Virus record (IMG/VR): IMGVR_UViG_3300035430_000406
Coordinates: 1 to 31,498 of that record
Length of the DNA: 31,498 bases
Origin: a virus
Direction: 5' to 3' (one strand)
Within the stretch, counting starts at the first letter, position 1. Every line of letters starts with the position of its first letter. The notes below the pieces were generated by a model that saw nothing but the letters and a program-made list of their open reading frames with translations, made no database searches and was not told the origin of the DNA. Shown piece by piece: positions 3,937-28,182 of the stretch. The position numbers were made by a program, and so were the translations under genes.

Positions 3937-4581
3937 TCAAAAGCTGTATTTAAAATAATCAATATCTTCGCCCCAAATTTCTTCCACTATTTCCCTGGAT
4001 CTGGGGCAGTAAATTTCTTTGTAATGTTTGTGGCTTGTTGAATTTTCTTTTTTAAGCTTTCTGTTGTGTTTTTCGTAGTATTCTTTTAAATCTGTTTCTG
4101 TTAAAAATGTTTCAAGATCTTCTGATAGATTTTCAAAGGTGAGCAAATATTTGATTCCAATTTTGTTGTTTGATTGAATATAGGATTTTTGAGTCCAGGA
4201 ATGCATGAAATCTTTTTCTTTTGAGATTTGTAAAAAATATTCGTAAAATTCTAAAAAATCGTCTTTAAAATCGCACCCATAAATTTTTTTAAAATTTATA
4301 AAATCATATTCATTAATCTTTTTGGCGAAACTAAACATTGAAACGGCTCGATCGTATGGGTTTCTAATGACCGCCAATGATGGAAGTGAAGTGATCTCTT
4401 GACCAAGTTCCTCAATGGCGGTTTCAAGCTTGCAGTGAGATGTTGAATAGATCTCTTCGTGTTCTGGGCGAATTTTAAGAGAATGCTCTCTGATTGTATT
4501 CGAAGCGCCGAAAAAATTATACAAAGAAGTACTGGCGTTTTTGGGTATTCTAACAAATGTTACTTTTTTGTTTTTGTTCAT
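3937..4581 (-). CDS. PAPS-dependent sulfotransferase family protein
   Basis: A 214-residue protein with both PAPS-binding signatures of the sulfotransferase superfamily. FVRIPKNASTSL at residues 10-21 corresponds to the 5'-phosphosulfate loop (the family's K-x-ST-x-L pattern), and AVIRNPYDRAVSMF at about 70-83 to the 3'-phosphate-binding R-x-P-x-R-x-S segment. Enzymes of this family move a sulfonate group from PAPS to a hydroxyl on sugars or proteins. Length is at the short end for a complete single domain. It overlaps the upstream gene by 32 bp, lacks a clear Shine-Dalgarno site, and comes before the structural pair and the radical SAM/glycosyltransferase genes. Sulfation of a phage glycan, a virion protein or the host surface is possible, but the acceptor cannot be told from sequence. 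Confidence 0.82.
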   Translation of the reverse strand: MNKNKKVTFVRIPKNASTSLYNFFGASNTIREHSLKIRPEHEEIYSTSHCKLETAIEELGQEITSLPSLAVIRNPYDRAVSMFSFAKKINEYDFINFKKIYGCDFKDDFLEFYEYFLQISKEKDFMHSWTQKSYIQSNNKIGIKYLLTFENLSEDLETFLTETDLKEYYEKHNRKLKKENSTSHKHYKEIYCPRSREIVEEIWGEDIDYFKYSF

Positions 4582-15629: not shown

Positions 15630-16017
15630 ATGATTTTACTTCTTTTACGTTTGAATTTGTAAGTTGATTAATTTGGTTTTTGATTTCAAAGCGTTTGTCG
15701 TTTGTGTGATATACGTCTCTAGCAAGACGAATAAACCTTGCGCCAAAATCTTTATTTCTTTCACATTCTGTGATATTATCTTCAATATGCCAAAGGCCTA
15801 AGTTAATTTGATAAAGATCGGCTTTCAATGCATAGAATTGAGATTTTGAAACCGATGTCGATGAAAAAACTACTTCAATAAATGCCGCAGAAAGTTGTTC
15901 TTTTTCGTTTTTGACTTCGTTGAGCTTATCTTCGTCTTTGATCATTGCCGATTTGATTTCAAGAATCGTCAGTTTATCAACAAGCTCGCCTACTGATATT
16001 GGTGTATTAATTTTCAT
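15613..16017 (-). CDS. DUF6165 family protein
   Basis: A 134-residue protein with the hallmarks of DUF6165: ISVGELVDKLTILEIK at the N-terminus, LYQINLGLWHIEDNI in the middle, and FIRLARDVYHTNDKR followed by a KNQINQ helix. The fold looks all-helical. Family members commonly sit beside glycosyltransferase and TPR genes, but their role is not established. The ATG at 16017 (MKINTPISVGE) is preferred to a TTG at 16026 because family members start this way. It overlaps the upstream glycosyltransferase by 11 bp and the downstream GT9 half by 17 bp, so it physically separates the two GT9 parts. It could bridge the halves or be an unrelated insertion. Confidence 0.8.
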   Translation of the reverse strand: MKINTPISVGELVDKLTILEIKSAMIKDEDKLNEVKNEKEQLSAAFIEVVFSSTSVSKSQFYALKADLYQINLGLWHIEDNITECERNKDFGARFIRLARDVYHTNDKRFEIKNQINQLTNSNVKEVKSYESYS

Positions 16018-17695
16018 ATAATTCAAATTGTGTTTTATCTATACCATTATGAGTATAATTAAGTACTTTTTGTGTCCCGCAATGCGGCAAAAATGCAATA
16101 TCAAAAAATCCTTTGTGGTTTCCTTGTCCCTCCAAAAAACAAAGATTATCAATCTCTTTGGAGTAGGGTAGGGCTTTATGAACCGCTGGATGGTCTTCTA
16201 TATAATCAAAAAATTGAGATTTAGTGAAAACATAAATATCGTATGAGGGGTAAAGCTTTTTAAGGTTGCCCATTAATGAGTTCACCCATAATACATCTCC
16301 AGCGGATTGTGGCATAACGACAGCAATTCGATTACCTTCATCTAATAGGTCTTCTAAATCAATTCCTTGTTTTTCTTCCTTTTCCCAGTCAAAATCGTAA
16401 TCTATGTCTGGCATTGCGTCTAGAATGGCTTCGAGCTTTTTACCTACGGCTTCCGTTGAGTAATTATCAATAGTCCACTGTCGGCCTTTTTTGCCCATCT
16501 GGAGGCGTTTAGGAGAGTCCATTTGCCAAACCTTTTTCAATTGTTTCGCTATACTAGATGGATAGGTTGACGCTTTGATAAATTGAGTTCCTGGCTCACG
16601 ATACTCGGCCCAATCCAACGGAAAACTTCCACAATCTTGAGATGCCGAATCTTCACCGCAAGAATAATTTGTGACAAGGGTAATAAGCTCTGTCATTTTA
16701 GCTTCAAAGATTGGGATTTCCATACCTCCACTTGTGAATGGATGACAATAAACATCCATCAGGTTATAAACCTCGTTTAATTGTTCCTCGTTTACTCCCG
16801 CTTTGACATTGGTGGTATTCAAAGATTTTTCTGTCCCACAAAAGCGACATTTTTGTTCTTGGCCAATAAAAGCACGAACTTCGTATTGTCCGCAGGCAGA
16901 ACAATAATAGGTAGTTAGGATGTCCTCTTTCTTTAGCCCTTTCTCTTCAATGAGTCTTGGAATGTCCCAACCCTCAGACCAATGAGTGTGTAAAAGTAAT
17001 TTTGCTTTGGGGCAATCTTTTTTGAATATTTTAAAGCCCTCCATGAGGTTTGGAACACTTTTCCGTAATTGGTTTCTAAACACAAAGCCTACAATAAACT
17101 CATCAGAAAGTCCGAATTTTTTTCTAAGTTCTTTGCGTTCGAGATTTGAAAGGCGATAAAAATCATCGGTGTCAACGGTGCCGTGAAGTGTGCCAACATG
17201 ATCGTGACCCATTTCTTTTAAATCTCTTTCCGCAAAAGAAGACCAGCAATAAAAATTTTTTGTTTTTGGTGCTGCTTCTACAGCTTGCGGCAAAATAGGC
17301 TGACTATCCAATGTAGTCCAAATCATATTATTGATTTTGTCCCACCAGGGTTTTTCCCAATAACCTCCAAAAGCCCAAATATCCTCTACTCCAAGATAAA
17401 TGTCTGGCTTGTATTCTTTTATCGCAGAATCAATTGTCGCTGCGCCATACCCAGCCGCACGACCTTTTTGCTGATCTGCGTTTAGTTGTTTTAGGAGCGC
17501 AGGATTGTTTGGTAAAGAGCCTTGGGCTTCCCAAGGTCTAAGCTTGAGGGATGGATCATTCCATTGTGTGCCATTTGCAAATTCAATGATTTCGTACTTG
17601 CCAGTTTTGTGGAGATAGCGAAGAATGTTTTTTGCATTTTTGCCAAAACCAGTAAATGCTTTGGCATTATTGGAATGGAAAAGTATCCGCTTCAT
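16007..17695 (-). CDS. GT4-type glycosyltransferase with zinc ribbon, fused to a GT9 N-domain
   Basis: A 562-residue protein with two parts. Residues 1 to about 430 are a GT-B glycosyltransferase: an N-terminal ILFHSNN strand with TGFGKNAKNI, then VGFVFRNQLRKSVPNLMEGF, and a nucleotide-sugar site SGGMEIPIFEAK (322-333) equivalent to the E-x7-E segment. Unusually, a CxxC...CxxC zinc ribbon (C265, C268, C283, C286) is inserted between its second-domain strands. After a linker (about 430-455) the C-terminus (IAVVMPQSAGDVLWVNSLMGNL, seen in pieces) resembles the first Rossmann domain of GT9 heptosyltransferases; its partner domain lies two genes downstream. The start shares bases with the upstream stop (TAATG). 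Probable role: building or modifying a glycan; substrates unknown. Confidence 0.8.
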   Translation of the reverse strand: MKRILFHSNNAKAFTGFGKNAKNILRYLHKTGKYEIIEFANGTQWNDPSLKLRPWEAQGSLPNNPALLKQLNADQQKGRAAGYGAATIDSAIKEYKPDIYLGVEDIWAFGGYWEKPWWDKINNMIWTTLDSQPILPQAVEAAPKTKNFYCWSSFAERDLKEMGHDHVGTLHGTVDTDDFYRLSNLERKELRKKFGLSDEFIVGFVFRNQLRKSVPNLMEGFKIFKKDCPKAKLLLHTHWSEGWDIPRLIEEKGLKKEDILTTYYCSACGQYEVRAFIGQEQKCRFCGTEKSLNTTNVKAGVNEEQLNEVYNLMDVYCHPFTSGGMEIPIFEAKMTELITLVTNYSCGEDSASQDCGSFPLDWAEYREPGTQFIKASTYPSSIAKQLKKVWQMDSPKRLQMGKKGRQWTIDNYSTEAVGKKLEAILDAMPDIDYDFDWEKEEKQGIDLEDLLDEGNRIAVVMPQSAGDVLWVNSLMGNLKKLYPSYDIYVFTKSQFFDYIEDHPAVHKALPYSKEIDNLCFLEGQGNHKGFFDIAFLPHCGTQKVLNYTHNGIDKTQFELYEN

Positions 17696-18198: not shown

Positions 18199-18855
18199 AT
18201 GGCTTATTTAAATCATAATTTGCCCACTTTTACTTGTTTTATTAGGAACGAATATCTTTTTAATCATGAAAAGGGACATAAGGAATATACATTATGCGAC
18301 GTTCACTCAGTGGCGTCTATGGAAAAAAGAGTGCCATTATTTGAATGTTACTTAGATAATGGAGTAAATTGGACAAGAAGGCCAATAACAGCACTATGTT
18401 GGAAGAAATGCGACCCTGTTCCTCTTGAGGAGTCTATGTATTGGGATTGTTTTTCTCCGTATGTTGATGTTAATATTAGAACCAGATTGAAAGGCTTGAG
18501 GGCGGTTTTAATTACGCCATCAAACAAAAGAGAATGGGGCGAATATATGTTTACTATTGATTGGGCTTGGGAGAGTAAAAGCGTATTGGATACAAATTTC
18601 TCAGAGCATCCAGAACATAAGTGTGCGCATTTTTTCAAGATGGAAAATGGCAACTTTTATGCCTATCCAAACAATAGAATAATTTGGCATGATGATGCAT
18701 GGGTAGAAAAGCCGCTTACATCAAACCCTGGATACCAAATCGATCAAAATGTTTATAGCGTAGAAAACAAAAGAATTAAATACACAGATAATTCTTTCAT
18801 GACAGAATTTAGTGATCTGAATTACACTGAGAAGGATTCAAAAAACGAATCGTAG
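18199..18855 (+). CDS. Unrecognised conserved-looking phage protein, single-gene unit
   Basis: A 218-residue protein, the only plus-strand gene in the right-hand part of the window. It is rich in Trp, Tyr, His and Cys, with cysteines at residues 13, 33, 50, 67 and 71, and segments such as TFTCFIRNEYLFNHEKGHKEY, VPLFECYLDNGVNWTRRP and WDCFSPYVDV that look like tightly conserved surface or core motifs. No known catalytic triad, nucleotide-binding loop, signal peptide or membrane helix is evident. It has its own AAGTGTAAT promoter-like box and runs into the leftward 18822 gene, overlapping it by 34 bp at the 3' end. The shared box with the tail operon hints at late expression. I do not recognise a function. 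Confidence 0.6.
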   Translation: MAYLNHNLPTFTCFIRNEYLFNHEKGHKEYTLCDVHSVASMEKRVPLFECYLDNGVNWTRRPITALCWKKCDPVPLEESMYWDCFSPYVDVNIRTRLKGLRAVLITPSNKREWGEYMFTIDWAWESKSVLDTNFSEHPEHKCAHFFKMENGNFYAYPNNRIIWHDDAWVEKPLTSNPGYQIDQNVYSVENKRIKYTDNSFMTEFSDLNYTEKDSKNES

Positions 18856-19586
18856 GAATTGGTTAGATCTTCTATTGATTTAATTTTTTCGTCTTGGTCT
18901 AATAGGTCGTGATATTTTGATTCATCGGCGCACCATTTTCTTCCTGTCCAAAACTCAAATCCTGGGAACGAGCTTTTGTATTTTCCGTGATTTTCGTAAC
19001 TTGGCCCAAGATATAAATACTTCAATTTTAATTCTTTAGCTAGCTTTATCTCCCTATATGTAGAAAACCTGCCAAGCCCTAAAACTTTATCTTTATAATC
19101 CCAGCAAAATTGATGACATATCAAACTTTCTCCAACTTTTTCAACTACGCTGAAAGCAATATCGCCATACATTAAAAATATATCATTGCTATTTTTGTAA
19201 GTATTTAAAAACTCTTCTTCGGATAGGGTTGAGGAAAAGTTTTTGTGAGTTACATAATTTAAATAAATTTTATATAGTTTTTTAAAGTCTGGATTAGTAG
19301 TAACTTCTATCTCTATGTTGCCTCTATTGATTTTTTTCCAAGCCTTTCTTTCATTTTTTGTTTCTATATATTTGCTTAAATCTAGTCTAGTTTGACGGCT
19401 TTGGTACCAAATTGCTTTATTTTGATTCACGAAGTTTGTATCTTGATTGTACCATATATTGGATGGACACCAACCATTATTGAGAGCCTCTTGCTCTTCT
19501 TTTTTTTCTACAGTTGCGCTAATTAATGTGTGTATAAAATCTGTATCTGCTTGTTTGCCACAAATATGGTCAAAAAATAATTTCAT
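18822..19586 (-). CDS. Aminoacyl-tRNA-protein transferase (ATE/Bpt)-like protein
   Basis: A 254-residue protein matching the layout of arginyl/leucyl-tRNA-protein transferases, which add an amino acid to protein N-termini and so create N-degrons. The N-terminal part has NNGWCPSNIWY and then SRQTRLDLSKY-x-RKAWKKIN (about residues 37-87), like the family's GW-x, LRIDLSKF and SQRRVLKKN elements. The C-terminal GNAT-like domain has the strongest match: LGLGRFSTYREIKLAKEL (169-186), KYLYLGPSYENHGKYKS, and F-x2-FEFWTGRKW, equivalent to LGT-x4-REI-x2A, YLGYWI-x-KM-YK, and the final W. The multi-Cys N-terminal cluster of classical enzymes is mostly missing, so tRNA use is not certain. It follows the pseudokinase-like gene with a TAATG junction. 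Confidence 0.68.
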   Translation of the reverse strand: MKLFFDHICGKQADTDFIHTLISATVEKKEEQEALNNGWCPSNIWYNQDTNFVNQNKAIWYQSRQTRLDLSKYIETKNERKAWKKINRGNIEIEVTTNPDFKKLYKIYLNYVTHKNFSSTLSEEEFLNTYKNSNDIFLMYGDIAFSVVEKVGESLICHQFCWDYKDKVLGLGRFSTYREIKLAKELKLKYLYLGPSYENHGKYKSSFPGFEFWTGRKWCADESKYHDLLDQDEKIKSIEDLTNSYDSFFESFSV

Positions 19587-20836
19587 TATTGATACATTTC
19601 TTGTATAATTTTTAACTCTTCTAGATCATACGTTTTGACCGTAGGCATTACTGTGAAAAACAACTTATCAAAAGATTTAATATACTCTGGGAAAACTGTT
19701 TCTAAGGTCGGCTTAAGGTTTAAATATAGATTCATGTAATGCTCTAATTTTTCTTTTTTTGTGAACGCTCCGTAGGCCGCAAAGTGAAACAGTATTCTAG
19801 ATAACAATTCTTGAAAAAATAAAATTCTATTTAATTTTGCCTTTTCTTCATATTTTAGCAAAAATTCTGAAATAGAAATGCCTCCCAAGATATTAGAGTG
19901 TTGATGGTATTTTGTCAAAAAGTTTTTAATTGAACTTTTATTTTTAAAAAGATATAAATTATTAACCACTCTTAGGAGACTGTAATAAAGATCAGCGGAG
20001 TGACTATATTCAAAATTTATAAATTTTATATATTGAGATTGGTATAAAATATTTGATTTTTTTAAATTTCCATGACACAGCACAGAAATGTCCTCTTTGT
20101 ATTGAGGTAAAAACTCTTCTTTGATTTTGGAAAAAATGTCTTTTAGGTTTTGTGGAGTGAGATCCGTCAATTTTTCAAACATGAGAATTTCTTTTTCATT
20201 TATCTCTTCTAGGGCTTCGGTGATAGATTCATTTTCATGAAAGTTATCCATAAATGATGTAATATTTGTTGTATCGCTTTCGTGGACTCCGTCTAGAACC
20301 GCCGAGAATGTTCCAAAGTTATATTCTAAATCATTAATTCCGAAGGTCTCAAAACTTTCGCCGTTTTCCCACGTTGTTAGCAAAAACTCTATTCCAGAAT
20401 CTTGTTCGTTTCTATACGCAATTAACTGTGGGCTAAAAAGACTTGGCACGGATTTGAGAGCATCTCTTTCTCTCGATAATTTTTTATTTTCTGGATCTAT
20501 GCTTATTTTTAAAATTAAACAAATTATATTTTCACCGTATTTAATTTCGACCCTTACGCTTTCGTAAAAAAAGTTTGAATTGATCGGTGTTAATGAAACT
20601 CCATCTTCTTTAAGTCCAAGCGAAATATCTTTTAACAGTTCATATTTGGGGTCTTGCAATGTAGCGTTTTTTGTATTTTCTGGAAGACATTCAACGAGTT
20701 CGCTAAGCGTAAGGGTAGAAAGAAATTTGAGTATAATATCTTTTTCAAATTGTGATAATTCGTTAGATCTGCCCAATGGATCTGGGTCAATAACCACATA
20801 ATTATTCAATGACACCTGTTTGTCGTCTTCCAGCAT
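19586..20836 (-). CDS. APH/choline-kinase-fold protein lacking catalytic aspartates (pseudokinase-like)
   Basis: A 416-residue protein with the aminoglycoside-phosphotransferase fold: an N-lobe around residues 85-160 ending in the hinge-like FLLTTWENGESF, then a helical C-lobe with CHGNLKKSNIL (254-264) and KFINFEYS (271-278). These correspond to the family's HGD-x4-N catalytic loop and D-x-E/D metal site. Both key aspartates are asparagines here (N257 and N274), while H255, N262 and E276 are kept. The enzyme is therefore likely inactive or strongly altered as a kinase and may bind a ligand or protein instead. It starts after a strong terminator with its own GTGTAAT-type box and is coupled by TAATG to the transferase-like gene. 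The fold is fairly clear; the role is unknown. Confidence 0.72.
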   Translation of the reverse strand: MLEDDKQVSLNNYVVIDPDPLGRSNELSQFEKDIILKFLSTLTLSELVECLPENTKNATLQDPKYELLKDISLGLKEDGVSLTPINSNFFYESVRVEIKYGENIICLILKISIDPENKKLSRERDALKSVPSLFSPQLIAYRNEQDSGIEFLLTTWENGESFETFGINDLEYNFGTFSAVLDGVHESDTTNITSFMDNFHENESITEALEEINEKEILMFEKLTDLTPQNLKDIFSKIKEEFLPQYKEDISVLCHGNLKKSNILYQSQYIKFINFEYSHSADLYYSLLRVVNNLYLFKNKSSIKNFLTKYHQHSNILGGISISEFLLKYEEKAKLNRILFFQELLSRILFHFAAYGAFTKKEKLEHYMNLYLNLKPTLETVFPEYIKSFDKLFFTVMPTVKTYDLEELKIIQEMYQ

Positions 20837-21096: not shown

Positions 21097-22593
21097 TTAA
21101 AATCCTATTCTACCTTTGATTCTGATATTTTTGCCAGATTTAATATTTTCTATTGATTCGTTTAATTTATGTGCAAATATATCATATATAGTCTCTGTGT
21201 CAATAATAAAAGTTTGTTTTTCCAACTTTTTTCCCCAATCTAGTAGTATTTTTTCATATTTTTTTTGAAATTTATGAAATTCTTTAGAATTGGTAAATTT
21301 TTGATCAGAAAACATCGGCTCCATGTCTTTAGCCTCTTGAGGTCTGACTACATTGATTTTTTTTGTTTTTGCTCCAGATTCGTCTAGGATGTCGAAAGCC
21401 TTGTCTGGGAATTTTTTCTCTGGGATATATTTACAGCAAAGATCTATAATCAAATCTATAATTTCCTCTGAGTATTTAACCTGATGGTAGTTTTCGTAGG
21501 AAGTTTTTGCACTCATCAAAAGTGTTTTCACATCTTCTTTGGAGGGTTCTGCTATATTGATGTTTTCGAAACGCCGATCTAGTGCGGCATCCCTTTTAAA
21601 ATATCTTTTGTATTCTTCTTCTGTTGTAGCTCCTATGCAAGAAATTTCCCCTCTAGATAGGGCAGGCTTTAATATATTGGCTAAGTCGAGACTGCCTTCA
21701 GAACTGCCAGAACCGATGATTGTGTGGATTTCATCAATGAATAAAATGTATTGAGGGTTTTGGGAAACAAACTCCAAAATGTTTTTCATCTTTTCTTCCA
21801 TTTGCCCTCTGAAGATTGTCCCAGAGATTACTGATGTAATATCCAGCGTCAGAATTTCTTTATGCAAAAGAAGGTCTGGGCACTCTCTCTGGACTATTTT
21901 TTCTGCCATACCCTCTACCAGTGCGGTTTTGCCAACGCCAGCGTCTCCTACAAAAATTATATTGCTCTTATTTTTTCTAAGCAGGATTTCAAAAGCTCTT
22001 TCTATTTCTTTGTCTCTGCCAAAAATTTCAAAAGTTCCCCTTTTGGCTATTTTTTGATTAAGATTTTCGCAACAATTTTCCGTTGGATTCGAGTTTTTTG
22101 TTTGGGTAGATCCTGCTGCGGTTTGGTTGCCTTGTGGCGTAATGGATTCAAAACCTTTTGAAATGCACTCAGAAAGATTTGTATTAAGTTTTTTAAGATC
22201 AATTTCTAGGCTATTTAAAAACTCTATAATTTCGTCTCTGGATTGTAAGCAAGATAGGAAAATGTGATCTACTCCAATATAATCGTGCCCTTTTTTGTTG
22301 GCAATTTTTGCAGAAAGTTCCAAGATTTCAAAGATTTCTGGAGCATAGATTTTTTTCTTTCTTTTTGGCTCTTTATATGCTTCCAAGATCTGGTAAAAAG
22401 CATCTGCCAGTGCTGCTTGGTTAATGTCTATACTTTGTAGAGAGAACCCAATGTTTGCATTATCCTTTAGTAGTAGGATATATACCAAATGAAGATCAAC
22501 AACTTTTAAGTGACCTAGTTCATCTGCAATTTTTCGGGATTCTTCGATTGCACTTTTGGCGCTTGGCGTTAAATTAAATTTAGTAAAGTCCAT
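21097..22593 (-). CDS. Single-ring Clp-type AAA+ ATPase (ClpC/ClpA N-domain plus D1 only)
   Basis: A 498-residue protein. Residues 1-150 are two Clp_N repeats (LTPSAKSAIEESRKIADELGHLKVV; then GHDYIGVDHIFLSCL), the substrate- and adaptor-binding part of ClpA/ClpC. The D1 AAA+ domain has Walker A GDAGVGKT (216-223), an aromatic pore loop FRG (261-263), Walker B ILFIDEIH (283-290), sensor-1 GATT (321-324) and an arginine finger RRFE (340-343). The protein ends at the place where ClpA/B/C would continue into D2, so the D2 ring and ClpP-docking loop are missing. Known full-length relatives are about 750-850 residues. It could unfold or remodel a replication or host protein without proteolysis. Coupled to the polymerase by TAATG. 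Confidence 0.87.
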   Translation of the reverse strand: MDFTKFNLTPSAKSAIEESRKIADELGHLKVVDLHLVYILLLKDNANIGFSLQSIDINQAALADAFYQILEAYKEPKRKKKIYAPEIFEILELSAKIANKKGHDYIGVDHIFLSCLQSRDEIIEFLNSLEIDLKKLNTNLSECISKGFESITPQGNQTAAGSTQTKNSNPTENCCENLNQKIAKRGTFEIFGRDKEIERAFEILLRKNKSNIIFVGDAGVGKTALVEGMAEKIVQRECPDLLLHKEILTLDITSVISGTIFRGQMEEKMKNILEFVSQNPQYILFIDEIHTIIGSGSSEGSLDLANILKPALSRGEISCIGATTEEEYKRYFKRDAALDRRFENINIAEPSKEDVKTLLMSAKTSYENYHQVKYSEEIIDLIIDLCCKYIPEKKFPDKAFDILDESGAKTKKINVVRPQEAKDMEPMFSDQKFTNSKEFHKFQKKYEKILLDWGKKLEKQTFIIDTETIYDIFAHKLNESIENIKSGKNIRIKGRIGF

Positions 22594-25163
22594 TATTTTA
22601 TTTCAGAAAGTTTGGTATAAATTTTTTCATCTAGAATTGTTAGCTTTTCGCCGAAGATTATGTCCTCGCCCTTACTGCCATAAACAAAAACAATTTCTCC
22701 TTCTTTTGGCTTCTTGCCTCCATTGTTGAGATAATTATCTAATGTATTAGATCTACGGTTGTTTGCAAGCATAAAATTAACTTTCCCAAAATCATCTTGG
22801 ATTTCTACTCGCATATACTTATTTCCATTTCGGCTTGTTCTAGAGACGCAATCCGTGACAACTCCAACAAACTTTACTCTATCGTTGTCGGGTATGGATT
22901 TCATTTCCAAACTATTGAATAGGTTGTCAGAATTTTGAAAAACTTTTTTAATTTCTGTAGAGTGGCTATATCCAAGATACTTACGCTCAAAGAACCAATT
23001 TGCAAAATTTAAATGGTTTTTGTTCTTTTCATATATTTCTTTATAACCTTTATACTTACTTTTAAAAGTCTCGAATCTAGAGGGTTTCATGATTGGTTTT
23101 CCATCATCGGCTATTCGGGAATCTCGAATAACTGATTGGATCGTGTTAAGAACGTCATAATCAAACTCTGAACCAAGGTGAATGATGTTTCTCTTTTCTC
23201 TTTCTGTGAGGATGTTGAATGATTGGGCTTCTAATACCAAGCGGCAACGATTTGGTGAACCGTTTGGATTTTCACAAAAAGAATCCATCATCCCGCCCTG
23301 AATCAATCCAGATAAAACGCCAATGTTAATTCCTGATTCCTTAGCTGTTGTGAATATATCATACTTATTTTGGTTATCTTCTTGAGCTTTTCTAAAGTCA
23401 ACCAAGTTTTCTAGTGTTTTTTCAGAAACGCCCTTTACGCTGTTGACACCAAACCGAATGTTACGACCTTCAATAGCGAAATTAATGTCAGACTTTGATA
23501 GGTCGGGCGGAAGAAGCTTCATGTTAAATAAACAAAACTCTTGGCTAATCAATGAGATCTCGGCGTGAGAATCTGGTTCATGCTTTGTCATTTTAAGCAA
23601 GCTAAGAAAGAACTCTTGTGGGTGCTTAAACTTTAAATAAGTTGTAATTGCGGCAAGAATAGCATAGCTGATTGAGTGAGATTTGTTGAAAGAGTAGTTT
23701 GCCGAGTCTTCAGCGACCTTCCATAAAACTTCGCCAACCTGTTTATCTAGATTGTTTTCTTCAACCTTTTGTTCGATCTTCGCTTTCCATGCTGGCATTT
23801 GGTCAACTTTCTTCTTGCCGACAATCCGTCTAAGCTGTTCTGCTTCATCAAGAGTGAAACCAACCTTAACGGCCATCTTCATTAACTGTTCTTGGTATAA
23901 TGGAATGCCACCAGTATAAGAGAGAATATCGTCAAAGAATTCATTAACAGACTGGAATTGACCACTGCTGGTATAATCAGCATAGACATCAAGATAGTCA
24001 AGTGCGCCAGGGCGAGCAATCGCAACGACAGCAGAAAGGTCTTCCAAACATTTGGGAGCAACCTTTTTGCAGACTTTAAAGTTGGTATCGGCCTCAATTT
24101 GGAAAAGACCCTTGGGGGCTTCAATGTTTTGAAAGTTTTCATATATCTCTGGGAGTTCCACATCTATATCTTCAATATTGATACCTAATTGTTCGCAGGT
24201 ATCGCTAACGACAGAGAGTGTTCTCAGGCCAAGAATATCAAACTTGACCATCAATGAAGCCACATCATTCATGTCGTAACCAGAGATAAGATTGCCATCA
24301 TTTGTTCTTTGCATCGGCATAACTTCTTCAATATCGTAGAAGCTAATTGCGATGCCAGATGGATGGACTCCTGTATTTTTATTTAATCCTTCTAATTTTT
24401 TTGCTATTTTAAATATTTTAGGGTTTTTATCCGCAAATTCTTTGAATTTGTCGCTCTCGTCATAAGCCTTATCTAGCTTAAATACTTTGCCAAACTGCTT
24501 CGGGATGTGATTACTAATAACATTTACATCATCCTCGGAAAGTTCTCCTACAATTTTACCACACTCTTTTACACAAAGCTTGCTACTTAGGGTATTGAGT
24601 GTTAGGATTTTGCAAGTTCTGCCTTTATGTTTTTTTTCAATGTATTGTATAACCTCTTGTCGGCGATCATAGGAAATATCATTATCAACGTCAGCAAGCA
24701 AAGAGCCGTCTAGGTATGTAATACCATCAACAACAGTTTTCTTGGCACGACTCTTTGAAACGAATCTCTCAAAGAAAAGATCGTACTTGATCGGGTCAAC
24801 ATTTGTAACACGAAGTAAATAAAGAACAAGCGAACCAGCCGCAGAACCTCGACCTGGCCCTGTTGGGATGCTATTGTAGTGGCAAAAATTTAAAATGTCC
24901 CAATTAAGCAGGATATAATCTACAAAACCAAGATCTTTGAGAACCGAAAGCTCCATCTTTACACGATCGTAATATTCTTGCTTGTTTTCGAGCTTATCGA
25001 TACCTCTTTGTTGAACGCCACGAAGGCACAATGCTCTTAGAAGATCGTAATTTGAGGATTTGGGGTCTAGATCTAGCTGGTAGTAAACACGGCGATCTAC
25101 TTCAATCCCTGGTAAGCGAACGCCTGCTGGCATTGGTTGCTTTAATGGTTTCAATTCTAACAT
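22593..25163 (-). CDS. dnaE: DNA polymerase III alpha subunit, catalytic core without PHP domain
   Basis: An 856-residue replicative polymerase of the C family. The thumb/palm entry (YYDRVKMELSVLKDLGFVDY) leads to GPGRGSAAGS (102-111), then the palm aspartates D158 and D160 in ADVD and D309 in VKFDILGL, which hold the two metals. Finger helices follow (IPLYQEQLMKMA; SANYSFNKSHSISYA), and an OB-fold segment (VKFVGVVTD) lies near the C-terminus. The PHP domain normally found at the start is not here; it is encoded separately at 26486-27163, with two genes between. The start at 25163 follows TTGACG-17-TAACAT with 7 nt to ATG. A short insertion before the first palm aspartates is unusual. Enzyme class is secure. 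Confidence 0.95.
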   Translation of the reverse strand: MLELKPLKQPMPAGVRLPGIEVDRRVYYQLDLDPKSSNYDLLRALCLRGVQQRGIDKLENKQEYYDRVKMELSVLKDLGFVDYILLNWDILNFCHYNSIPTGPGRGSAAGSLVLYLLRVTNVDPIKYDLFFERFVSKSRAKKTVVDGITYLDGSLLADVDNDISYDRRQEVIQYIEKKHKGRTCKILTLNTLSSKLCVKECGKIVGELSEDDVNVISNHIPKQFGKVFKLDKAYDESDKFKEFADKNPKIFKIAKKLEGLNKNTGVHPSGIAISFYDIEEVMPMQRTNDGNLISGYDMNDVASLMVKFDILGLRTLSVVSDTCEQLGINIEDIDVELPEIYENFQNIEAPKGLFQIEADTNFKVCKKVAPKCLEDLSAVVAIARPGALDYLDVYADYTSSGQFQSVNEFFDDILSYTGGIPLYQEQLMKMAVKVGFTLDEAEQLRRIVGKKKVDQMPAWKAKIEQKVEENNLDKQVGEVLWKVAEDSANYSFNKSHSISYAILAAITTYLKFKHPQEFFLSLLKMTKHEPDSHAEISLISQEFCLFNMKLLPPDLSKSDINFAIEGRNIRFGVNSVKGVSEKTLENLVDFRKAQEDNQNKYDIFTTAKESGINIGVLSGLIQGGMMDSFCENPNGSPNRCRLVLEAQSFNILTEREKRNIIHLGSEFDYDVLNTIQSVIRDSRIADDGKPIMKPSRFETFKSKYKGYKEIYEKNKNHLNFANWFFERKYLGYSHSTEIKKVFQNSDNLFNSLEMKSIPDNDRVKFVGVVTDCVSRTSRNGNKYMRVEIQDDFGKVNFMLANNRRSNTLDNYLNNGGKKPKEGEIVFVYGSKGEDIIFGEKLTILDEKIYTKLSEIK

Positions 25164-25846: not shown

Positions 25847-25855
25847 ATTACACTT
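25847..25855 (-). promoter_or_regulatory. Putative AAGTGTAA-type promoter before the 25839 gene
   Basis: AAGTGTAAT on the minus strand, 7 nt before the ATG at 25839 and overlapping the stop of the exonuclease gene. It could also be read with a weak TTGGGA -35 at 16 nt from TAATAT. Confidence 0.5.
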
Positions 25856-26486
25856 ATACCTCTATTTCCCAAATTTGTTTTTGAAATATTTCAAAATTCT
25901 TTTCGATGTCGTAAAGAGCGTCATGTAGCTTTGCTTCATCAAACTTGATGTCATAATGCTGTAAGAGGAACTTCTGATTGGTCTTTAAGCCTCTTTCTCT
26001 GTGATTTAGGTATCTGAGTTGCCAAGCAAGAAAATCGTCCTTATCGGGCGTTTTATTGCCCTTGGCAATTGCTGTTGCAATGGCTTTAGTATCGAAGCAT
26101 CTTTTAGAGAAAGAGTAATCAACCTTTATGCCCAAATTTCGGCCAATGACTCCAAGCATATATAGATCGTACCCAAGAATATTTTGACCAACGACAATTA
26201 CATCATCTTGGTTTATCAATTCCATAAACTCTTTGAAGACTATAGCGGGATCTTCCGCTTTGGACAAATAGTCTTTTTTATCGAATCCAGTAATTTGTGC
26301 CGCTTCTTCTGATACGTTAAGCTCGTCCCACTTTAGAAATCTGTTTTGTTTCTTTGTAATCTTCTTGCCAGTAGCCTCAATCCAAGCTAATTGCCAAGGT
26401 TTTGATGATACGAGGTTAAGGCCTTCGGTTTCGGTGTCGAAGATAACGTATTTTTGGTCAAATTTAAATCTAAGTAAGTCTTCCAT
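25854..26486 (-). CDS. dnaQ: DnaQ-type 3'-5' proofreading exonuclease (DEDDh)
   Basis: A 210-residue protein of the RNase H-fold DEDD superfamily. YVIFDTETEGL gives the first metal ligands D17 and E19; GQNILGYDLYML supplies the second aspartate; HDALYDIE near the C-terminus gives the His and last Asp of the DEDDh type. This is the epsilon-like proofreading subunit for polymerase III alpha. The ATG at 26486 overlaps the stop of the PHP gene (TAATG) and has a full Shine-Dalgarno GGAGGA 6 nt upstream, rare in this window. Because the PHP domain has lost metal ligands, proofreading probably depends on this protein. No clamp-binding peptide is evident. Confidence 0.88.
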   Translation of the reverse strand: MEDLLRFKFDQKYVIFDTETEGLNLVSSKPWQLAWIEATGKKITKKQNRFLKWDELNVSEEAAQITGFDKKDYLSKAEDPAIVFKEFMELINQDDVIVVGQNILGYDLYMLGVIGRNLGIKVDYSFSKRCFDTKAIATAIAKGNKTPDKDDFLAWQLRYLNHRERGLKTNQKFLLQHYDIKFDEAKLHDALYDIEKNFEIFQKQIWEIEV

Positions 26487-27163
26487 TATTTGTCCTCCTT
26501 CCAGGCTTCTATGCAAAAACGATCACTGCCAAAATGGTCAAGTCGTGGATTAGATAGGCTGGCTTGTCGGCCAGGCTGACGGTTGCAAATACACTTGTAT
26601 GTTTGAAACGCTTCAACATCTTCTTTGTTTTCATAATAGATGGATTTCACCTCTGCTGACGGATTGGGGTTGTTCTTAATAAATTCTTTGATTCTTGATC
26701 TGAGTGCTTGATCGTAAGGTAGGCCGTTGTCTTCTAGGAAAAACCAAATTTGTTCTGGAAGGTTTGGCATACAGTTGGAGAAACTAAAAAGATTTTTATG
26801 AAGAAAGGAATCATAAAAAGGAATACAAAATTTTAAATTTTTATAATCAAACCAAGGGCTTTTGATCTTTTTGTCGAAGCTCTCCGTGTGTAGTTTGTAT
26901 AGTTCTTTGCAGCCTTCATCTCCGTCAGCAAAAGCTATAATTTTACTTTCTGATTCGGGGCTTTCATCATTGTTGAATATTGACAATCGCAACCCAAAAC
27001 GAAGCCTGTCCCCAAATAAACGAAAGGCTTCTGGGAAGCCAGTCATGCTGTCCTCGACAAAATAAACCTCGTCAATATTGTTATCGGTGGCAATTCGGTC
27101 AACATCATCCAAACGAAGTATGCTTCTGCCGATAGAGAAATGAGTCTTAAATAACGGTATCAT
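26486..27163 (-). CDS. Separate PHP domain of DNA polymerase III alpha (degenerate)
   Basis: A 225-residue protein that aligns by landmarks with the N-terminal PHP domain of DnaE: THFSIG (7-12) for HTHSxxSLLDG, VEDSMTGFPEAF (36-47) for TDHGNLFGA, LRFGLRL, IIAFADGDEGCKELYKL for LLAKNEEGYRNL-KL. The C-terminal stretch (EAFQTYKCICN, LDHFGSDRFCIEAW) matches DnaE's linker to the palm. Several metal ligands are changed: the first His of H-x-H is Lys and the His of TDHG is Ser, so the exonuclease activity known in some PHP domains is probably gone, as in E. coli DnaE. It starts an operon from its own TTGACA/TATATT promoter and is followed by the DnaQ-like exonuclease. It probably docks to the catalytic core. 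Confidence 0.8.
   Translation of the reverse strand: MIPLFKTHFSIGRSILRLDDVDRIATDNNIDEVYFVEDSMTGFPEAFRLFGDRLRFGLRLSIFNNDESPESESKIIAFADGDEGCKELYKLHTESFDKKIKSPWFDYKNLKFCIPFYDSFLHKNLFSFSNCMPNLPEQIWFFLEDNGLPYDQALRSRIKEFIKNNPNPSAEVKSIYYENKEDVEAFQTYKCICNRQPGRQASLSNPRLDHFGSDRFCIEAWKEDK
26493..26498 (-). promoter_or_regulatory. Strong Shine-Dalgarno site deciding the exonuclease start
   Basis: GGAGGA on the minus strand with 6 nt to the ATG at 26486. It supports that start over an in-frame TTG at 26516 and stands out because most genes here have no such site. Confidence 0.75.
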
Positions 27164-27170
27164 ACAAACG

Positions 27171-27198
27171 AATATACATGATCTTAACGATTTGTCAA
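27171..27198 (-). promoter_or_regulatory. Sigma70-like promoter for the PHP/exonuclease operon
   Basis: TTGACA (27193-27198) and TATATT (27171-27176) separated by 16 nt, 7 nt before the ATG at 27163. The -35 lies in the last codons of the RecB-like gene. The strongest match to the sigma70 consensus in the window. Confidence 0.7.
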
Positions 27199-28182
27199 GT
27201 GTTTTGGACATCCACGATAGAACTTTACCTCGTGGCTTCCACCTTCTGGCACCATTTCTTTTTTGAAATCTTCTTGGAAGCAGGAAGAATGAAACTCGCC
27301 CTCTTCGTCTAAAATAGTGACATACCAAAAATCAAACTTGTATGGACAGTGCCACATCGGCGAGCCATCTTTCTTTAGTTGTCCTTTTTCTGTGGCAAAC
27401 CCACATTGTAGTTTGCCGCCAAACGAACCGTCTTCTGGAAAACCTTTATCTATCGCAAAGTTGGCGACGGCGTCCTTTTCATCAAAGTTTTCTAGGTATT
27501 CCTGGATGGACGCCAACTGCATCTCAAAACCTTCTAAATCATCGTCTTCGATTGGGGCCATTTTCATTAAGCCCTTCTTTTTTAAATCAAATTTTAAAAA
27601 CAAAAACTCAGAACTCCTATTCACATATTCTGGGAAAAGGGTTTTAACAGCTAAAGAATATATATAATCTTGGAGATTGTCTTCTTTTTCTTTGCCCTCA
27701 AACATTTTTTTGCTGGTCTTGTAGTCTCTAATGATCGCAATCTTTTTGTCTTTGTATAAAAATAACTGGTCAATGAAGCCACGAATATGGTAGCCGTTTT
27801 GTTCAATATCAAAATCCAGTTCGGCGTGAGCTTCATCTGGAATACCCAAGTCTTCACCGTGAAAATTGCAACTTAATCCATTAAGAATCATTTCTTTAAT
27901 GAGGTTCATATTATCCTCATCGGTAACACCAAGCTCAGAGGCGTCAGACATAATCAATTCATGTACAGCTTTTGACGCAAATGGATCTTTGGCTTTTACG
28001 ATCTTATTAAAATGAGCCTTTGTTTTTTGCTTGGACAAAAACTCAAAAACATTATGGCAGACTGTACCACGCCGAGCGCCGTCATTGTTTGTGTCAGGCA
28101 AATTCTGTACATATTTACTCCAGTATATCCAACTGCACGATTGCGCCGTTTTGATGCGGCTTGCTGATAATTTAACTTCCAT
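27184..28182 (-). CDS. RecB-family PD-(D/E)XK exonuclease
   Basis: A 332-residue nuclease with motifs of the Cas4/RecB-C-terminal group. ASRIKTAQSCSWIYW at 7-21 holds the first Cys, GTVCHNVFEF (39-48) has the G-x3-H-x2-FE motif, GFIDQL (135-140) and RDYKTSKK (152-159) give active-site Asp and D-x-K, and Q171 with Y173 fits the QxxxY helix. Several C-terminal cysteines (LQCGF, WHCPY, SSCF and RGCPKH) could join C16 in an iron-sulfur cluster as in AddB or Cas4, but spacing is not exact. Probably acts in DNA end processing during phage recombination or host DNA breakdown. It overlaps the primase by 11 bp. No cas genes are near, so a CRISPR role is unlikely. Confidence 0.82.
   Translation of the reverse strand: MEVKLSASRIKTAQSCSWIYWSKYVQNLPDTNNDGARRGTVCHNVFEFLSKQKTKAHFNKIVKAKDPFASKAVHELIMSDASELGVTDEDNMNLIKEMILNGLSCNFHGEDLGIPDEAHAELDFDIEQNGYHIRGFIDQLFLYKDKKIAIIRDYKTSKKMFEGKEKEDNLQDYIYSLAVKTLFPEYVNRSSEFLFLKFDLKKKGLMKMAPIEDDDLEGFEMQLASIQEYLENFDEKDAVANFAIDKGFPEDGSFGGKLQCGFATEKGQLKKDGSPMWHCPYKFDFWYVTILDEEGEFHSSCFQEDFKKEMVPEGGSHEVKFYRGCPKHLTNR

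Follow-up and report, generated by a model that had tools for sequence, protein, structure and literature searches.

We have identified a conserved, cysteine-less branch of the ATE/Bpt aminoacyl transferases, which is restricted to viruses in the searches made and tightly paired with a second protein family, PHROG_3704. The member studied here lies in the window, i.e. the whole stretch of DNA that was analysed (31,498 nucleotides), a 31.5-kb virus record with lambda-like tail genes, a DnaE-type polymerase, a primase and a DnaB-like helicase (Table 1). The carrier of the gene is a marine phage. With moderate confidence, we place the protein in the ATE/Bpt branch as a virus-specific transferase that depends on aminoacyl-tRNA, is changed in its N-terminal half and acts with or on PHROG_3704.

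Table 1. Location of the features discussed; nucleotide positions are those of the window and residues those of the transferase
Feature	Position	Strand	Basis or remark
ATE/Bpt-like transferase, 254 aa	18822-19586	(-)	ATG start; Pfam ATE_C, hhalign to Bpt, ATE1 fold, dN/dS
Cys-less N-terminal domain of the transferase	residues ~1-70
Basic helix of the transferase	residues ~72-92
GNAT/ATE_C domain of the transferase	residues ~100-220
Partner gene p218, PHROG_3704, 218 aa, all-beta model	18199-18855	(+)	PHROG_3704 E 2e-48
Tail-to-tail overlap of transferase and p218, 34 bp	18822-18855		kept in L001-L008
APH-like (kinase-fold) gene	19586-20836	(-)	Pfam APH E 4e-5; stop overlaps transferase start
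Clp-like AAA+ protein: Clp_N, one AAA module, D1-type lid, C-terminus IGF	21097-22593	(-)	Pfam Clp_N, AAA_lid_9
Radical SAM, sulfotransferase-like and glycosyltransferase-like genes	1355-2443, 3937-4581, 670-1404, 16007-17695	(-)	twitch-domain radical SAM: NF033640 E 1e-67
PHROG_405 match	22593-25163	(-)
PHROG_405 match	26486-27328
Exonuclease subunit	25854-26516
Region of the exonuclease subunit and the second PHROG_405 match	25854-28182	(-)

Pfam ATE_C (PF04377) was found on residues 103-210 of the transferase with an E-value of 4.1e-8 and 34.3 bits, passing the gathering score of 25, and it was the sole Pfam entry at E up to 1, with no GNAT, FemAB or ATE_N family. It was also matched in 23/23 aligned relatives scanned (E up to 0.1; best 1.4e-11). 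Seven NCBIfam arginyltransferase models match the window transferase as well (best E 4.8e-11), the equivalogs (PRK01305 set) giving at best 42.6 bits against a cut-off of 170, which is thus not reached, while a profile search of PDB sequences retrieved yeast ATE1 at E 1e-6 with the strand-helix motifs F.WD, LG, Y.LG and YK aligning. For the comparison with Bpt, 26 canonical Bpt-like proteins, found by a YLGYW[IV] DNA pattern, were taken from proteobacterial genomes; hhalign of 67 viral sequences against these 26 gave a probability of 98.8% and an E-value of 9e-16 (one comparison) over 226 columns, covering residues 1-239. Eight positions, namely G38, R67, Y111, G172, Y192, Y203, K204 and W218, are identical and near-invariant in both families. 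The initial annotation had read this gene as an ATE/Bpt-type protein of a phage with a well kept C-terminal signature, and both points are borne out; of the profiles it had proposed for comparison, ATE_C and Bpt match and ATE_N does not.

The predicted fold leads to the same family. An AlphaFold model of the transferase (pLDDT 79, pTM 0.82; weak at residues 4-17 and 44-52) has human ATE1 as its best structural match, with Z 17.1 over 227 residues, across the whole length of the model. KlAte1 follows at Z ~15, then MprF/A-PGS at ~14, FemX at 12.7, which is thus not a better match than ATE, and Sba18/Sbb17 at ~11.5, so that the top structural matches are mostly aminoacyl-tRNA users; ordinary GNATs reach Z 11-12. 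It could be argued from the GNAT fold, and from Acetyltransf_6 matches in 5/23 members (best 2e-6), that the protein is an N-acetyltransferase of the ordinary acyl-CoA type, built on an ATE-like scaffold. We consider this very improbable, since these matches are weaker than those of ATE_C, Acetyltransf_1 appeared marginally (0.058) in a single member of the 23, and the fold ranking favours ATE1. Moreover, the conserved GxG P-loop of acetyl-CoA GNATs is not kept, as its first glycine at position 170 is replaced by Y, S or D in 17/67 sequences and G172 alone is invariant, as in the SLG motif of ATE/Bpt. FemAB was absent from the Pfam listing of the 23 members. What had been named at the outset as speaking against the assignment, namely that ordinary GNAT or FemAB families match better, was thus not seen.

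The N-terminal half differs from that of Bpt. The four Bpt-invariant cysteines map to C9, K57, W60 and S63, and cysteine is conserved at none of these positions across the viral family; C9 is the sole Bpt-type cysteine kept in the window transferase, and its column holds A, T, C or S in the family. The loss of most N-terminal cysteines, noticed earlier from the sequence of this one protein, therefore extends to the whole family. ATE_N, the N-terminal domain whose four metal-binding cysteines are conserved, was looked for in the transferase and is absent, and the protein should on this account not be classed as an arginyl- or leucyltransferase. Since the viral family has lost the acceptor and metal site that ATE/Bpt carry at the N-terminus, the acceptor, and even the donor, could differ.

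The family as a whole is well conserved. Among the invariant or near-invariant residues of the 67 distinct sequences, numbered as in the window transferase, are H7, G38, W39, W60, R64, R67, Y111, F160, W162, Y164, L169, G172, E179, Y197, E198, K204, G209, F210, E211, W213, G215 and W218. A first scan of IMG/VR returned 43 relatives, and a second one, queried with the family alignment, at least 210 confirmed stretches, of which the best 80 of 210 were kept. Between near relatives, dN/dS was 0.04-0.10, with synonymous sites near saturation in most pairs and a value of 0.087 in the unsaturated pair L009/L010; this purifying selection indicates a strongly constrained protein and, together with the IMG/VR relatives, excludes a chance ORF. 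A single-sequence tblastn of GenBank phages gave no hit, and no cultured carrier is therefore known here. A bacterial origin was also considered and found no support in a GTDB scan of 84,980 genomes, made with the family alignment and two strict patterns, which returned no relative. Within the IMG/VR, GenBank phage and 84,980-genome searches, the family is confined to viruses.

How such a protein might work can be outlined from its relatives. ATE1 grips the acceptor stem of the tRNA via a Lys/Arg-rich helix and offers a hydrophobic patch for the 3′-CCA (PMC10115844). In the viral family, residues 72-92 occupy the place of this ATE1 helix, correspond in the alignment to RSxRR of Bpt and carry a mean net charge of +6.0 (67 sequences); the range of 0 to 9 means that this basic helix is not uniform. 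The helix would dock on a host aminoacyl-tRNA at its acceptor stem, with the 3′ end of the tRNA held in the aromatic GNAT pocket, and an amine of an acceptor protein would receive the aminoacyl group; the remodelled N-terminal domain (FDH..G...D; GW.P..W; W..R..R) would substitute for the zinc or Fe-S acceptor site. Aminoacyl-tRNA is in our opinion a fairly likely donor; the variable charge of the helix and the Z scores of ordinary GNATs count against this picture.

The closest companion of the transferase is PHROG_3704, which directly adjoins the transferase gene in 56/67 distinct transferase sequences. The two genes lie tail to tail with the 34-bp overlap in the window and in L001-L008; in the rest they follow each other in tandem, and in most of these cases the stop of one overlaps the start of the next. 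L007 has the same genes on either side, but the pair between them is inverted as a whole. The evolutionary distances of the two proteins are correlated (r 0.85, 50 pairs; 0/2000 permutations as high, maximum 0.34), although much of this correlation would be expected from vertical co-inheritance alone. The likeliest acceptor would be the paired PHROG_3704 protein itself or something that it binds or presents, an assignment which we make tentatively and hold as possible rather than probable. Nearly all PHROG_3704 proteins start with M[A/P/S][Y/F]L; a role as canonical N-terminal acceptor was accordingly set aside, this start not being Asp/Glu.

Other features of the partner were inspected. PHROG_3704 occurs in 112 phage records of GenBank, most of them cyanophages and some pelagiphages. 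The family, seen in the window and in L045-L050, is widely deposited in cyanophages and pelagiphages as PurM or ferredoxin; these labels are unsupported, as 27 members matched neither AIR synthetase nor ferredoxin families of Pfam at E up to 0.1. No Pfam family was found for the members, and no relative among PDB sequences. A Tudor/SH3-like barrel was weakly suggested (best Foldseek E 0.027, Z 7.0; model pLDDT 69.5) and is not used as evidence. The transferase was found at 0/80 pelagiphage-type PHROG_3704 loci and in 0/6 whole GenBank phages checked, from which it follows that only some PHROG_3704 systems have the transferase as an addition, and that the partner can do without it. Both this wide occurrence of PHROG_3704 without the transferase, and a clade that has the transferase without the partner, count against the reading that we favour.

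In that distant clade (contigs of 21-206 kb), speD lies directly upstream and overlaps the transferase start in those inspected (AdoMet_dc E 1e-10). The speD-like gene of L111 (5600-6777), and those of L108 and L112-L116, belong to this clade of large phages and show the same overlap; an AdoMet decarboxylase-like ORF was also seen by eye in the very large record G012 (347 kb; L069, L226, L227). SpeD homologues of phages can decarboxylate ornithine or arginine (PMC9992855). A polyamine pathway link was weighed and dropped, the adjacency being real but mostly that of one clade. More broadly, the aminoacyl group might be passed to a small molecule or glycan (a polyamine, a peptide or a surface sugar), as by FemX, MprF and the streptothricin-type enzymes. 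MprF, FemX and Sba18/Sbb17 are indeed among the structural neighbours, a row of speD, speE, p218 and transferase exists in L067 besides the speD-linked clade, and the window is rich in sugar-modifying genes. We nevertheless hold such an acceptor to be decidedly unlikely, given that sequence and fold alike lie nearer to ATE1 and Bpt than to FemX or MprF, that speD is common among marine phages (PMC9992855), its adjacency to the transferase being so restricted, and that no AdoMet decarboxylase was found among the scanned window proteins.

Bpt and Aat act as N-degron taggers in bacteria, and ClpX-type unfoldases dock on ClpP through the tripeptide IGF. The transferase might attach a destabilising residue to proteins of the host or the phage, for delivery to ClpP by ClpS/ClpA or by a Clp unfoldase of the phage. 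Several carriers encode suitable parts. Six distinct Clp-like homologues, that of the window included (the others being in L053, L054, L056, L057 and L058), all end in IGF, IGFL or IGFGV and are 51-76% identical to the window protein, which may be a minimal ClpP-docking unfoldase; alternatively, the terminal IGF could be a remnant of a D2 start motif. A single-sequence scan for D1-only Clp proteins returned only the contig of L008 itself, with strict patterns that missed homologues otherwise known. Two-ring unfoldases of the ClpA/C type, with an [MVI]GF loop, are encoded by four large carriers; G012, putatively viral throughout, combines the transferase and PHROG_3704 with ClpS, ClpP and a ClpX-like protein, and the gene row of L067 starts with ClpP, ~2 kb upstream. 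Yet Clp parts are absent from the small carriers tested (38-59 kb), and the acceptor site of ATE/Bpt for N-terminal Asp/Glu is remodelled in the viral family. The transferase occurs in 7/40 Clp-bearing large contigs, these seven probably being related phages; Clp enrichment was set aside, being too confounded by this relatedness for a test. The link to Clp proteolysis is one of gene co-occurrence only, in some lineages, and N-degron tagging by this protein is in our view unlikely. Perhaps marine phages have a complete N-degron system of their own, in which the cysteine-less transferase would write a new N-terminal mark, PHROG_3704 would be marked or do the presenting, and phage Clp unfoldases, including the one-ring IGF form, would deliver the substrate to host or phage ClpP; this is a speculative scheme, to which we give still less credence.

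Further neighbours vary among the carriers. For twelve small-phage cases, Hsp20 comes next, with GroES nearby. In the window, the catalytic Asp of the APH-like protein is replaced (HGN for HGD, NFE for DFE), and its gene is missing in L008, with homologues of 26-28% identity in L001/L004/L007 and 64% in L006. These replacements, and the variability at this slot, suggest that it is probably a pseudokinase and not active; a fixed kinase partner of the transferase was rejected on the same observations. Elsewhere in the window, the tail genes are flanked by the radical SAM, sulfotransferase-like and glycosyltransferase-like genes, which probably make up a set for modifying surface glycans or the tail. 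DNA polymerase III alpha-like functions appear to be distributed over several ORFs (Table 1), which suggests a split polymerase.

In the open-access literature searched, no phage-encoded aminoacyl-tRNA-protein transferase was found. That a virus-only branch has dispensed with the metal site suggests that this site is not essential for the ATE/Bpt core to function or to be put to another use. The pairing also provides a functional handle on PHROG_3704, which is carried under misleading names by more than 100 deposited phages, mostly cyanophages. If it is true that the transferase tags proteins, this would be a new phage route to steer host proteolysis.

Among known systems, Bpt, the bacterial leucyl transferase for N-terminal Asp/Glu composed of ATE_N and ATE_C, resembles the viral protein in the 226-column homology, in the eight common positions and in a length of ~250 aa. 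The viral family differs from it in lacking the four conserved cysteines, in falling under every NCBIfam arginyltransferase cut-off, in being found only in viruses in the searches made, and in having its own invariant motifs FDH..G, GW.P and GFEFWTGR.W. Eukaryotic ATE1 arginyltransferase is the closest in fold and shares the aligned motifs; in contrast to it, the viral protein is about half as long and lacks both the zinc or Fe-S cysteines and the variable domain. Aat, the leucyl/phenylalanyl-tRNA-protein transferase of E. coli, has the same GNAT-type aminoacyl transferase fold (Foldseek 2cxa, E 9e-5), but hhalign with the single E. coli sequence gave a probability of 0.1, nor did it support a supposed likeness of the N-terminal GW.P..W motif to Aat. 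Finally, FemX, MprF and Sba18/Sbb17 share aminoacyl-tRNA-dependent GNAT cores with the viral protein (Z 11-14), whereas in sequence and fold they are less similar to it than ATE1, and they serve other acceptors.
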